A DNA stretch of 64,000 bases, taken from assembly GCF_900115585.1 (NCBI RefSeq), contig NZ_FOWZ01000003.1, forward strand, positions 248,001 through 312,000, in the 5' to 3' direction. Under the pieces are notes generated by a model. That model did not search any database. It had not been told where the DNA came from and saw nothing but the letters and a program-made list of their open reading frames with translations. The stretch comes from Qipengyuania nanhaisediminis. Its GTDB lineage: Bacteria > Pseudomonadota > Alphaproteobacteria > Sphingomonadales > Sphingomonadaceae. Below are positions 38,669 to 62,503 of the stretch, piece by piece (the first letter of the stretch is position 1; each line of letters opens with the position of its first letter). The position numbers and the translations under genes were made by a program.

Positions 38669-38685
38669 TTGGTGAAATTTCCCAA
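38669..38685. promoter_or_regulatory. Upstream palindrome, candidate enhancer-binding-protein site
   Basis: TTGGTGAAATTTCCCAA is a 17-base inverted repeat with one mismatched pair, flanked by a weaker outer repeat AATCC (38659) / GGATT (38692). Its centre lies about 110 bases upstream of the expected start site of the sigma54-type promoter, the distance at which PspF-like activators bind. A second, perfect 12-base palindrome GCAGAATTCTGC is at 38735-38746. Confidence 0.45.
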
Positions 38686-38758
38686 CCTTTCGGATTGATG
38701 AACGAAACCTGTCTGCCAGATTAAGCGGGCATCCGCAGAATTCTGCCGTTTTTCGAGT

Positions 38759-38775
38759 TTGGCACGCCTGTTGCA
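38759..38775 (+). promoter_or_regulatory. Sigma54-type (-24/-12) promoter of the microprotein-pspC operon
   Basis: TTGGCACGCCTGTTGCA matches the consensus TTGGCACG-N4-TTGCA at every fixed position, with GG and GC separated by exactly ten bases. Transcription would start near 38786, leaving a leader of about 50 bases to the first microprotein ATG at 38838. Phage-shock operons with pspC are classically sigma54-dependent, which fits the downstream genes. Confidence 0.75.
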
Positions 38776-38837
38776 ATCATTCTGGTGTCCCCCGGGTGGT
38801 CCGGCGGGAAGCAGAAATTACAAAGGGAGTATCACTC

Positions 38838-38957
38838 ATGTCCGCTTTCGCACTCGACACCAACAAGGCTTTCGCAGCTGTCTTCGCACTTGGCCTTTCG
38901 GCACTCAGCATGGCTTTCGCAATCATCCCCGCTACGCCCGCCGGCCTCGTCGCCTGA
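38838..38957 (+). CDS. 39-residue membrane microprotein A of the pspC operon
   Basis: Too short for normal gene callers. Ribosome site AAAGGGAG lies 9 bases before the ATG. The protein begins MSAFALDTNKAFAAVFALG, has one hydrophobic segment (about residues 11-31) and ends IIPATPAGLVA. It shares length, single span and the ATPxGxxA end with the next gene, so the two look like tandem paralogues. It is not PspB (which is longer and has a coiled coil) and I know no family. Position behind a sigma54-type promoter and before pspC suggests an envelope-stress role (inference). Confidence 0.7.
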   Translation: MSAFALDTNKAFAAVFALGLSALSMAFAIIPATPAGLVA

Positions 38958-38990
38958 TCACCAGCCAACCCAATCAAAGGAAACCATCTT

Positions 38991-39110
38991 ATGTTCGACA
39001 ATGAAAACATCGGTAGCCGCGTCATGGCCGCTGCCGTATCGGTAATGATCTCGGCCGGCTTCTTCGCCACCGCCATTGCCTATGCCACCCCGACCGGAAT
39101 GATCGCATGA
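38991..39110 (+). CDS. 39-residue membrane microprotein B of the pspC operon
   Basis: Ribosome site AAAGGAAA precedes the ATG by about 9 bases. The protein begins MFDNENIGSRVMAAAVSVM, has one hydrophobic segment (about residues 12-31) and ends YATPTGMIA. Same size and C-terminal pattern as microprotein A, 33 bases upstream; the N-terminal halves differ. Its TGA overlaps the pspC ATG by four bases (39107-39110), so it is translationally coupled to pspC, a strong reason to accept it as a gene. Confidence 0.72.
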   Translation: MFDNENIGSRVMAAAVSVMISAGFFATAIAYATPTGMIA

Positions 39111-39325
39111 GCGACCTGAAATTCCGCGACGACAATGCAGTGCGCCCCAGCCGCAGTTTCAAGCTGGACCGCACGAATGCAAAGATGATGGGTGTATGCG
39201 CCGGTATGGGCCGCTACTTCGGGATCGACACCACGCTGGTTCGCGTCGGCTTCGTCCTGGGAACGCTGCTCGGCTTCGGAAGCTTCATCCTGATCTACCT
39301 GGCGATCGGACTGATCGCAGACTGA
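39107..39325 (+). CDS. pspC: PspC-domain membrane protein
   Basis: Protein of 72 residues, almost entirely one PspC domain: FKLDRTNAKMMGVCAGMGRYFGID followed by TTLVRVGFVLGTLLG and a membrane segment ending YLAIGLIAD. PspC helps sense membrane damage and relay it to PspA in the phage-shock response. It is shorter than enterobacterial PspC, lacking the C-terminal leucine zipper. pspA and pspF are not in the window. The two microproteins and a sigma54-type promoter precede it. A hairpin follows directly. Confidence 0.9.
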   Translation: MSDLKFRDDNAVRPSRSFKLDRTNAKMMGVCAGMGRYFGIDTTLVRVGFVLGTLLGFGSFILIYLAIGLIAD

Positions 39326-39326
39326 C

Positions 39327-39357
39327 AGAGGACGCGGGGGCAATACCGCGTCCTCTT
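39327..39357 (+). terminator. Terminator-like hairpin after pspC
   Basis: AGAGGACGCGG (39327-39337) pairs perfectly with CCGCGTCCTCT (39346-39356) around an eight-base loop. Only a short T-run follows (CTTAT), so termination may be incomplete. It also lies just beyond the SDR gene stop on the other strand and could serve both. Confidence 0.65.
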
Positions 39358-39362
39358 ATCCG

Positions 39363-40145
39363 TCACATGGCCGAGATACCGCCGTCGAGCTTGAGCTCCG
39401 CACCGGTCATGAAACGGCTCTCGTCACTGGCGAGATAAACCACCGCGTTGGCGATATCGTTCGGCTCGCCGACAAACCTGAGCGGAATCTGCCGGGCCAG
39501 CTTGTCCATCAGGACGTCCTTATCCAGCCCCGAATGCCGTGCCGTTCCGTCGAGGATCGGCGTATCGACGAAGGTCGGGTGGATGGAATTACAGCGGATC
39601 TGCATCTGCTTCTTCGCGCAATGCAGCGCGATCGACTTCGACAGCATCCACACCGCAGCCTTCGACGAGTTGTACGCAGGCATCGTGTCGCTGGCGATGA
39701 GCCCGGCGATCGAGGAAATGTTGATGATCGAGCCGGGCGCATGCTCGCGCATTAGCGGCAGGGCCTTCTGGCAGCCGTGGAAGATCGAATCGACATTGAC
39801 GGAGAAGCACCGTTTCCAGTCGTCGAAATCGCAGGTCTCGATATTTCCGGCGACGCCGATACCCGCATTGTTCACCAGCACGTTCAGACCGCCGAGTTCG
39901 GCATCGGACGTCTCGACCACGCGTTCCCAGTCTTCGGGATTGGTCACGTCGTGCTGGACGCCATAGGCATGGCCTGCACCCATTTCCTCGACGATTTCTG
40001 CGGCGGTCGCTTCGGCGCCTTCACCGTTGATGTCGGTGCACAGTACCCGTGCGCCTTCTTCGGCAAGCCTTCTTGCATGGGCACGCCCAAGTCCTTGCGC
40101 CGCGCCGGTCACCAGCGCCAGCTTGCCTGCACACCGTTTCGCCAT
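39363..40145 (-). CDS. Short-chain dehydrogenase/reductase
   Basis: An NAD(P)-dependent oxidoreductase of 260 residues of the classical SDR type. The cofactor loop is VTGAAQGLGRAH (TGxxxGxG), NNAG is present in LVNNAGIGVAG, and the catalytic residues are Ser in INISSIAG and Tyr/Lys in YNSSKAA. Asp in LCTDINGEG suggests NAD rather than NADP. The end EPNDIANAVVYLASDESRFMTGAEL is typical. The substrate is unknown. It is the last gene of a five-gene run (LemA, TPM, TPM, NUDIX, SDR), starting 2 bases after the NUDIX stop. Confidence 0.93.
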   Translation of the reverse strand: MAKRCAGKLALVTGAAQGLGRAHARRLAEEGARVLCTDINGEGAEATAAEIVEEMGAGHAYGVQHDVTNPEDWERVVETSDAELGGLNVLVNNAGIGVAGNIETCDFDDWKRCFSVNVDSIFHGCQKALPLMREHAPGSIINISSIAGLIASDTMPAYNSSKAAVWMLSKSIALHCAKKQMQIRCNSIHPTFVDTPILDGTARHSGLDKDVLMDKLARQIPLRFVGEPNDIANAVVYLASDESRFMTGAELKLDGGISAM

Positions 40146-60448: not shown

Positions 60449-61413
60449 CAGAACTTGTCCGCTGCATCCATCAGTTTCGTGGCCGATTTCGGCGCCACGG
60501 CCCGCCAGCTCCGCTCGAGCCATTCGGCGACGTGGTCCCAATCGCAATCGGGACGGTTCAGGATCAGCCCGACCCAGCCGCTCGCCCCGTAATAGGCCGG
60601 TTTGAAATAGGTGTCGGGCTGCGTTTCAACGAGGTTGAGCAATTCGTCCAGGCTGCCGGTCTTCACCAGCAGCGCGATATGTTCGGAACCGTGGTGCTGG
60701 TCGTTGAAATAGGCGAAATATTTGCCCGACTTCTCGCTCCCTGCGCGCCAGCCCGGTGAGCCGTGGCTTTCGCGCTCGTGGCTCTGGGGCAGGGCCAGCG
60801 CAAGGTCCCTGACCCGTTCCAGCAGGAAATCAGGGTCGCTTTCGCGCGCGACATAGCGTGCCAGGACCTGCGGATAGAGCTGGTGTTCGGCAAAGCGCAC
60901 GCGTTCTGCAAGCGTGTCGGGAGTCTCGCCGTCACGGATCGCGACTGCAACTTGGCCCAGCACCTCACCTGCATCGAGCTCTTCGGTCACGAGATGGACG
61001 GACACGCCGCCATGACTGTCCCCCGCCTCTATCGCGCGGGCGTGGGTATCGAGACCGGTGTATTTCGGGAGCAGCGAAGGGTGGATATTCAGCATCCTGC
61101 CCCGCCACCGTCCGACGAACCCTTCGGTCAGGATGCGCATGTACCCGGCCAGCACGATATATTGTGCGCCCGCATCCCGGGCGGCTTTCTCCATGGCCGC
61201 GTCATGATCTGCGCGTGGCATGCCCTTGTGGGACAGGGCGTAGGTCGGAACACCTTCAGCCGCAGCGATGGAAAGCCCCTCCGCTTCCGGATCGTTCGCC
61301 GCGACGAGACACACCTCGTAAGGGCAATCGTCGATCAGGCTGGCGTAGAGCAACGCGGCCATATTGCTGCCGCGCCCGGATATGAAGATCGCGACCTTCG
61401 CCTTCTCAGCCAA
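60448..61413 (-). CDS. purN: PurN (GAR transformylase) fused to an MmcQ/YjbR-like domain
   Basis: Transfers formyl from 10-formyltetrahydrofolate to GAR in purine synthesis. Protein of 321 residues: the PurN domain (about 1-200) has [17 protein letters not shown], the catalytic Asn109-His111 in [18 protein letters not shown] and Asp147 in VTEELDAG. From about residue 202 a second domain, [21 protein letters not shown]-like and [19 protein letters not shown], matches the MmcQ/YjbR (DUF419) fold. Start is a TTG at 61413, six bases behind GAGGCGG, overlapping the purM stop by 8 bases. PurN alone is about 200 residues, so this is a fusion. Confidence 0.93.
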
Positions 61414-62503
61414 GGTGGGCCGCCTCCCAGTCTGCCTTGGCGGACCATGTCCCGGCCGAACCGCGAACCGTGCAGCCCTTCTCGCCTTCCACGATACGGC
61501 CGACGGCGAGCACGGTTTCGCCCGCATCTTCGAGGCGTGTGCGCACGATCTCCGCATTGGCCGGATCGACTGCGAGGACCATGCCTATGCCGCAATTGAA
61601 GGTGCGCGCCATTTCGCCCGGCTCGATATTGCCCTGCGCCTGCAGGAAGGCCATCAGCCCCGGCTGGTCCCAGCCGTCGGCTTCGACCTCCGCATGGGCA
61701 CCTTGCGGCAGGACGCGCGGGATATTTTCGAGCAATCCGCCCCCGGTGATGTGGGCCAGTGCATCGACCAGTCCATCGCGAACGACCGGCAGGAGGGATT
61801 TGACGTAAATCCGCGTCGGCTCGAGCAAGGTCTCGATCAGCAGCCGGTCCTGGTCGAACAGGGCGGGGCGGTCGAGCTTCCAGCCCTTGTCCTCCGCCAG
61901 CCGCCGGACAAGTGAGAAACCGTTGGAGTGGACGCCCGAACTGGCGAGGCCGAGCAGGATGTGCCCCGGAGCTACCCGTTTCCCGGTCAGCTGTTCGTCG
62001 CGTTCGACCGCGCCGACACAGAACCCTGCGAGGTCATAATCACCGCTCGCATACATGCCGGGCATCTCGGCGGTCTCACCCCCTATGAGGGCGCAACCTG
62101 CCTGTTTGCAGCCGTTGGCGATGCCGGCGATGACTCGCTCGGCAACGCCATTCTCCAGCTTGCCGGTGGCAAAATAGTCGAGGAAGAACAGTGGCTCCGC
62201 GCCCTGGACGATCAGATCGTTCACGCACATCGCGACAAGATCGATCCCGACAGTGTCATGCCGGTCGGTATCGATTGCCAGCTTGAGCTTGGTTCCGACG
62301 CCGTCATTGCCTGCGACTAGCAGGGGATCCTTGTACCCCGCCGCCTTGGGATCGAAAAATCCGCCGAAGCCGCCGATCTCGCCGTCGGCACCGGGGCGCA
62401 TGGTGGCTTTCACCAGGGGGCCGATCGCCTTGACGAGGGCATTGCCCGCATCGATCGAAACACCCGCCTGTTCGTAGGTGTAGGACTGGTTGTCGCTGCT
62501 CAT
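61406..62503 (-). CDS. purM: Phosphoribosylformylglycinamidine cyclo-ligase
   Basis: Makes AIR from FGAM and ATP, the step after FGAM synthase in purine synthesis. Protein of 365 residues starting at ATG 62503 ([14 protein letters not shown]), with GAGGGG 7 bases before it. [23 protein letters not shown] (ATP grip), [38 protein letters not shown] and NFC-type [11 protein letters not shown] are the signatures. Divergent from the DUF2066 gene across about 70 bases; overlaps purN. Confidence 0.97.

Follow-up and report, generated by a model that had tools for sequence, protein, structure and literature searches.

Tandem single-span microproteins encoded with a mini-PspC in a very probable second PspF/sigma-54 operon of Qipengyuania nanhaisediminis

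A short pspC gene in the genome of Qipengyuania nanhaisediminis is directly preceded by two very small reading frames, and the question that this locus raises is whether these frames encode proteins and what such proteins would do beside PspC. The window analyzed here is the whole stretch of 64,000 nucleotides (64 kb) in which the locus lies, and its features are collected in Table 1. The first-pass annotation described two genes of 39 codons each with AAAGG-type Shine-Dalgarno sites, a C-terminal ATPxGxxA in both products, and an ATGA overlap between the stop codon of microprotein 2 and the start codon of pspC (position 39107), all of which is found in the window. The length of exactly 39 residues holds for this pair but not throughout its relatives; of the 57 loci scored as pairs, 21 have 39 residues in both proteins, and the range over all 57 is 35 to 39 residues for ORF 1 and 37 to 39 for ORF 2. 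There are 126 ATG-started frames of 34 to 44 amino acids in the window (both strands, nested starts counted), and three of them combine a hydrophobic 17-mer (Kyte-Doolittle mean of at least 1.8) with a Shine-Dalgarno-like core; two of these three are the neighboring microproteins 1 and 2. A second match to microprotein 1 in the same genome (E-value = 0.098) contains three in-frame TAG codons and was dismissed.

Table 1. Features of the microprotein-pspC locus in the window, with the extended pspA locus of the same genome
Feature	Position	Strand	Description
Putative PspF enhancer (UAS) dyad	38669-38685	+	TTGGTGAAATTTCCCAA, centre 82.5 bp upstream of the -24 TGG
Second short palindrome	38735-38746	.	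GCAGAATTCTGC, between the dyad and the -24 element
Sigma-54 -24/-12 promoter (predicted)	38759-38775	+	TTGGCACGCCTGTTGCA, perfect 11/11
Shine-Dalgarno of microprotein 1	38822-38829	+	AAAGGGAG
Microprotein 1 (ORF 1)	38838-38957	+	39 aa, single hydrophobic span, MSAFALDTNKAFAAVFALGLSALSMAFAIIPATPAGLVA
Shine-Dalgarno of microprotein 2	38976-38982	+	AAAGGAA
Microprotein 2 (ORF 2)	38991-39110	+	39 aa, paralog of microprotein 1, MFDNENIGSRVMAAAVSVMISAGFFATAIAYATPTGMIA
Mini-PspC	39107-39325	+	72 aa, Pfam PF04024 58.4 bits (cut-off 25)
Hairpin directly 3' of pspC	39327-39356	+	no long T run
Own-genome extended pspA locus (L152)	C6 near 61363-62328		

The third gene of the operon encodes a PspC domain, as in other PspC domain proteins (PF04024); unlike the usual PspC, however, its product is only 72 residues long and scores 52.1 bits against the PspC equivalog TIGR02978, which is under the cut-off of 104. 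The closest named PspC among the matches listed is that of Q. aquimaris (99%). The hairpin behind the gene is likely the end of the transcript; the fold of positions 39322 to 39366 has a minimum free energy of -25.4 kcal/mol (z = -5.16), and 0 of 200 shuffled sequences were as good. A terminator scan requiring a T run returned none on the strand of the operon, and a sigma-70 promoter scan found no promoter for it. The operon is flanked on the opposite strand by genes that we take, from their translations and with no profile search behind the names, to be recF (upstream) and an SDR-type gene (downstream).

When PspC was used as the query against 118 relatives (own genome included), matches were obtained in 80, and the best locus was read in 70 of these 80. 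One to three microproteins were found in 65 of the 70 loci (one per genome, own genome included). The other five have none; a PspB-like ORF lies upstream instead in L081, L084, and L087, and nothing recognizable was seen upstream of pspC in L085 and L086. Scoring of the 65 loci by filter gave 57 pairs, 7 single copies, and 1 triple, although L040 and L074, scored as single, hold a second copy, and L071 is truncated where its contig stops. The microproteins are present in one to three tandem copies in Qipengyuania/Erythrobacter relatives and in divergent forms in Novosphingobium. The Novosphingobium-type proteins are, on the evidence of profile alignment, related to microprotein 2 (hhalign probability = 93.2, E-value = 2.8e-7, 29 columns). 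Plasmid records gave no match to the PspC protein, and therefore offer no annotated plasmid copy for comparison.

The families of microproteins 1 and 2 align with each other in hhalign over their whole length (probability = 99.2, E-value = 2.9e-19, 39 columns), and they are therefore paralogs, which agrees with the earlier description of duplicated, diverged membrane microproteins. Ala13, Ala26, Ala28, Ile29, Ala32, and Pro34 are kept at 90% or more in both MAFFT alignments, from which conservation was taken; motif-anchored column counts require A26, A/T28, I/V29, and A/G32. No frameshift or stop codon that would speak against the two genes was seen in close relatives: all 57 loci have an open frame 0 for both ORFs, whereas the other two frames are open in 26 and 50 of 57 for ORF 1 and in 18 and 29 of 57 for ORF 2. 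This result is supportive but not independent because the 57 loci were chosen for having the ORFs. The substitution ratios proposed with the first-pass annotation as a check were calculated, and the median dN/dS across 50 loci of the genus is 0.42 for microprotein 1 and 0.32 for microprotein 2 (pspC, 0.24 in 49 loci); the corresponding medians in eight close relatives are 0.115 and 0.31 (pspC, 0.24). Estimates from 39 codons are noisy, and the sequences are much diverged across the genus; at the level of these ratios, both microproteins are under purifying selection.

Neither window microprotein has a match in Pfam at an E-value of 10 or less. In NCBIfam, microprotein 1 has one weak match, to the PtrA N-terminal domain (13.7 bits versus a cut-off of 31), and the members of alignments A1 and A2, selected subsets with 26 and 27 sequences, respectively, gave scattered weak matches at E-values of 1 or less, the best being 0.03 or worse (e.g., PhrC_PhrF, PraA, and cytochrome b559 beta). 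By these scans, the microproteins are a family above no Pfam or NCBIfam cut-off. No profile match to PspB, PspD, or PspG (PF09583) was obtained for the window proteins or, at E-values of 1 or less, for the sequences in A1 (26) and A2 (27), in line with the annotation, which had reported none to PspB or PspD. The AlphaFold2 model of microprotein 2 is one helix spanning residues 4 to 32 (mean pLDDT = 78) and thus differs from the two membrane helices predicted for PspG. The tail contains proline in both families, and the last 14 residues are uncharged in 46/46 and 46/46 distinct sequences. The N-terminal 13 residues carry no net charge in 39/46 and 29/46 distinct sequences; because the N-terminal net charge is about 0, the topology of the microproteins is not determined by charge. 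A helical packing face is weakly supported, with p = 0.02 (microprotein 2) and p = 0.17 (microprotein 1) for the conservation moment and p = 0.52 and 0.84 for the small-residue moment. A small-xxx-small helix face was set aside, with one of four periodicity tests at p = 0.02. The terminal residue is alanine in 43/46 and 41/46 distinct sequences, which as a protease or PDZ signal is a lead only, because the ATGA overlap already favors Ala in microprotein 2.

The promoter upstream of the microproteins, which the first-pass annotation overlooked, was located with the sigma-54 -24/-12 consensus. The site is the only match in the window (0.05 expected), and the 16-base consensus has three matches in the 2.9-Mb genome, versus one for the reversed control: the microprotein-pspC locus, a site before the pspA operon, and a site inside a gene that, from its translation, is presumably leuA. 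The last was dismissed; the reversed control likewise had one match. The site is conserved at 10/11 or better in 64 of 65 microprotein loci, with 11/11 in 44. The dyad farther upstream reads TTGG-n9-CCAA, an exact pattern that occurs once in the window (0.65 expected by chance); at least 7/8 half-site matches are found in 60 of 64 loci, compared with 8.4% of shuffles, and the spacing is exactly 82.5 bp in 57 of 64. The pattern CCAA-N50-80-sigma54 was found in 57 of 60 genomes of the genus, and the reversed control gave three hits in all. Some members of the genus have extra sigma-54 sites that are preceded by CCAA...GGCAA and possibly serve another activator (e.g., G046:C3:528856, G020:C1:954958, G005:C1:673460, and G036:C2:854349). 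The second palindrome has the majority consensus GGC.GAATTC.GCC across the 64 pspC loci, and its 14-bp self-complementarity is at least 12 in 18 of these 64, versus 1 of 28 pspA loci; it is a possible site for another regulator at pspC-type promoters.

The activator encoded divergently from pspA is PspF (TIGR02974, 475.3 bits versus a cut-off of 443.55). The pspA loci were placed in 28 of 29 cases; L176 was not located by the motif. With a matrix built from the pspC dyads, 24 of the 28 pspA promoters scored higher than the 99th percentile of shuffles, and the best matches of the 28 lie 82 to 84 bp upstream in 18, 63 to 64 bp in 9, and 48 bp in 1. Among the 27 pspA promoters with at least 7/8 half-site bases, 22 have the strict TTGG-n9-CCAA pattern centred at 62.5 bp instead of 82.5 bp, and the site at 82 to 84 bp is an imperfect dyad with a TAGG left half (TAGGGAATTTTCCCAA in the own genome). 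This speaks against the two promoters being simply identical: the dyad motif is present at both, seemingly twice at pspA. The microprotein locus is very probably the second PspF/sigma-54 operon of the genome, because the sole other intergenic sigma-54 consensus site, together with the imperfect dyad, would drive pspA beside the PspF gene.

The family also extends to operons without pspC, another feature that the annotation overlooked. Within the order, 50 of 246 genomes, all of them from the family of the window, were matched by a microprotein profile that misses more divergent forms, and 33 loci were then fetched. The dyad, the promoter, and one to three microproteins occur without pspC (judged over roughly 1 to 1.6 kb read downstream) at L118, L119, L121, L123, and L124, in genomes that each also have a microprotein-pspC operon. 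At L139, the recF/SDR setting and two microproteins are kept with no recognizable pspC. Three copies precede pspC at L120, L125, L126, L129, and L150, and three occur without pspC at L123. Because of these additional operons and L139, the microproteins are not merely leaders of pspC, and a partnership with PspC is not obligatory. A stricter dyad-promoter pattern alone gave 74 matches in 69 of the 246 genomes and none in the control columns. Of the 30 matches that were read, some of which overlap earlier loci, 29 are followed by a hydrophobic ORF of 35 to 53 amino acids that has a Shine-Dalgarno site and starts 53 to 76 nt downstream, L311 being the sole match without one; this proportion applies to 30 of the 74 matches, and the other 44 may differ. 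Among the 80 of 456 named relatives that were listed, some of them shared with earlier sets, the profile detects one or two microproteins in 67 and none in 13, 77 have a sigma-54-like site of at least 9/11, and 69 have a dyad centred 81 to 83 bp upstream. The genera of these listed matches include Qipengyuania, Erythrobacter, Altererythrobacter, and Novosphingobium.

In known systems, PspA keeps PspF inactive until the membrane is stressed, and PspF then activates pspABCDE and pspG via sigma-54 (excerpts of PMC9239133 and PMC2763126). As the best explanation for the genes, their conservation and paralogy, the promoter, the dyad, the PspF gene, and the occurrence without pspC, all read from sequence, we propose with a probability of about 0.6 that the locus is an operon of the PspF/sigma-54 regulon, whose products would be stress-induced inner-membrane effectors or partners of PspC. 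We infer PspF binding, inducibility, and the membrane insertion, partners, and effect of the microproteins as follows. Stress on the inner membrane would free PspF from PspA, and PspF, once on the dyad, would activate the RNA polymerase that carries sigma-54, so that transcription would run from the promoter through microprotein 1, microprotein 2, and mini-PspC to the hairpin, and the two paralogous single-span proteins would be made together with PspC. By analogy, the operon would be induced together with pspA. In the inner membrane, the microproteins would most likely serve as small effectors or would assemble with one another and, where it is present, with PspC, and they would help to stabilize the stressed membrane. 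The interpretation in the first-pass annotation is supported as far as it went but was incomplete without the PspF promoter, the operons without pspC, and a similar arrangement at pspA.

Several other explanations were weighed against this regulon reading. That the frames arose by chance, for which their very short length could be cited, can practically be dismissed: two of the three window ORFs of this kind adjoin here, the frames recur across many genera, and their conservation refutes it. If the frames were leader ORFs that only set the translation of pspC by coupling, with functionless peptides, the ATGA coupling of the last microprotein would be accounted for (62 of 65 ends, as scored, read ATGA). 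Such a role is nevertheless very improbable because operons without pspC exist; the residue-level conservation (six positions at 90% or more) and purifying selection, the one to three copies, and the lack of an overlap between the last microprotein and pspC in several loci of other genera (e.g., L122, L142, and L145) also argue against it. It is quite improbable that the microproteins are membrane-active in the manner of YohP or TisB and lower the membrane potential to push the stressed cell into a quiet state. Size and hydrophobicity would fit, but the microproteins apparently stand downstream of PspF, the known effectors of the PspF response preserve the proton motive force, and the family searches gave no sequence match.

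An exported product is likewise unlikely. Cleavage after Ala28 would release a C-terminal peptide of about 11 residues to the periplasm under stress, and the A-x-A motif and hydrophobic core of a Sec signal peptide are indeed present; Ala26 and Ala28 are kept at 90% or more in both alignments around a variable middle residue, and Novosphingobium-type relatives have a signal-peptide-like c-region (e.g., MPSTAQA) followed by a short YVGEIA-like tail. On the other hand, Ile at the would-be +1 position is kept at 90% or more, which we judge unusual for a cleavage site, the N-region is mostly net neutral in both families, and the helix modeled for microprotein 2 runs uninterrupted through the site. 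The available text of a top-down study of the Novosphingobium periplasm (PMC3608174) mentions no such peptide.

The regulon reading places the microproteins beside several known small proteins. PspB and PspD are membrane-located Psp proteins. Like them, the microproteins are small proteins encoded with PspC (E. coli and Yersinia; excerpts of PMC9239133), but they have no profile match to either, and the true PspB of the genome sits in the pspA operon (TIGR02976, 91.5 bits). PspG (PF09583) is a membrane effector of the Psp response with two predicted membrane helices, and in E. coli it is a small inner-membrane protein from a separate PspF/sigma-54 operon (excerpts of PMC2763126), which is also predicted for the microproteins; unlike PspG, they are about 39 residues long and single-span, occur in one to three copies, usually with mini-PspC, and do not match its family. 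The microproteins most likely resemble PspG and PspB in role, by analogy, and not by homology. YohP is likewise shorter than 50 residues, with one span and a link to stress (excerpts of PMC12719787), both of which are predictions for the microproteins, but its control is different, and no sequence relation appeared in the family searches. According to a 2022 survey, PspF had until then been reported as a Psp regulator from Enterobacteriaceae alone (PMC9239133); a 2024 survey reports PspFABC operons from genome comparison, some of them in Alphaproteobacteria, and its accessible parts make no mention of such microproteins (PMC11237479). No description of them was found in the open-licence PMC literature, which does not prove their absence from print. 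Within the Psp response, a textbook system for coping with membrane stress, many alphaproteobacterial genera are predicted to have a distal PspF operon, the most regular content of which is a microprotein family that no curated profile covers. The Psp regulon thus appears to have an unrecognized, widespread microprotein arm, a small and testable set of candidate effectors whose promoter motif can find members that gene-length cut-offs may miss.

The arrangement at pspA resembles that at the microprotein locus. In each of the 28 pspA loci, the promoter is followed by a hydrophobic microprotein of about 50 residues (MYxRxFF...; the script set some starts farther upstream), and the N terminus of PspA is extended in frame by 61 to 89 codons (L151 to L179 without L176). 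The extension start overlaps the microprotein stop as ATGA in 14 loci and as GTGA in 14, and most extensions contain the motif PLGPER... RL.RI..EVERLRRSPTPT.... A "microprotein-first" Psp design in Erythrobacteraceae and relatives, with microproteins as docking partners of PspA and PspC, is a tentative possibility that we hold with less than even confidence. PspF-controlled operons would open with a single-span microprotein, often ATGA- or GTGA-coupled to the next Psp protein (mini-PspC or extended PspA), and the microproteins would be delivered co-translationally as membrane docking partners for PspA and PspC, which they would recruit or gate. Descent of the pspC-type family and the pspA-leader microprotein found in the window's genus from one ancestor was not supported by hhalign (probability = 3.7 and 0.7). 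At L143 (G239, another genus), a 48-residue ORF before pspA matches the pspC-type profile (E-values = 3e-6 and 1.1e-4), pspA and pspF there being presumed from their reading frames. This match hints at a common origin of both operon leaders, and the two microprotein types may therefore be one old module.

The pspA operon of the own genome (L001, 70-1979, - strand) contains a second, longer PspC-domain frame, and several PspB-like genes lie in a row on either side of pspC, one of them scoring only 24 bits against TIGR02976; excerpts of PMC11237479 mention duplicated PspB in operons of this kind. The 99%-complete genome G001 (L039) has no pspA match at an E-value of 1e-20 or less, although it retains an intact microprotein-pspC operon with both dyad and promoter.
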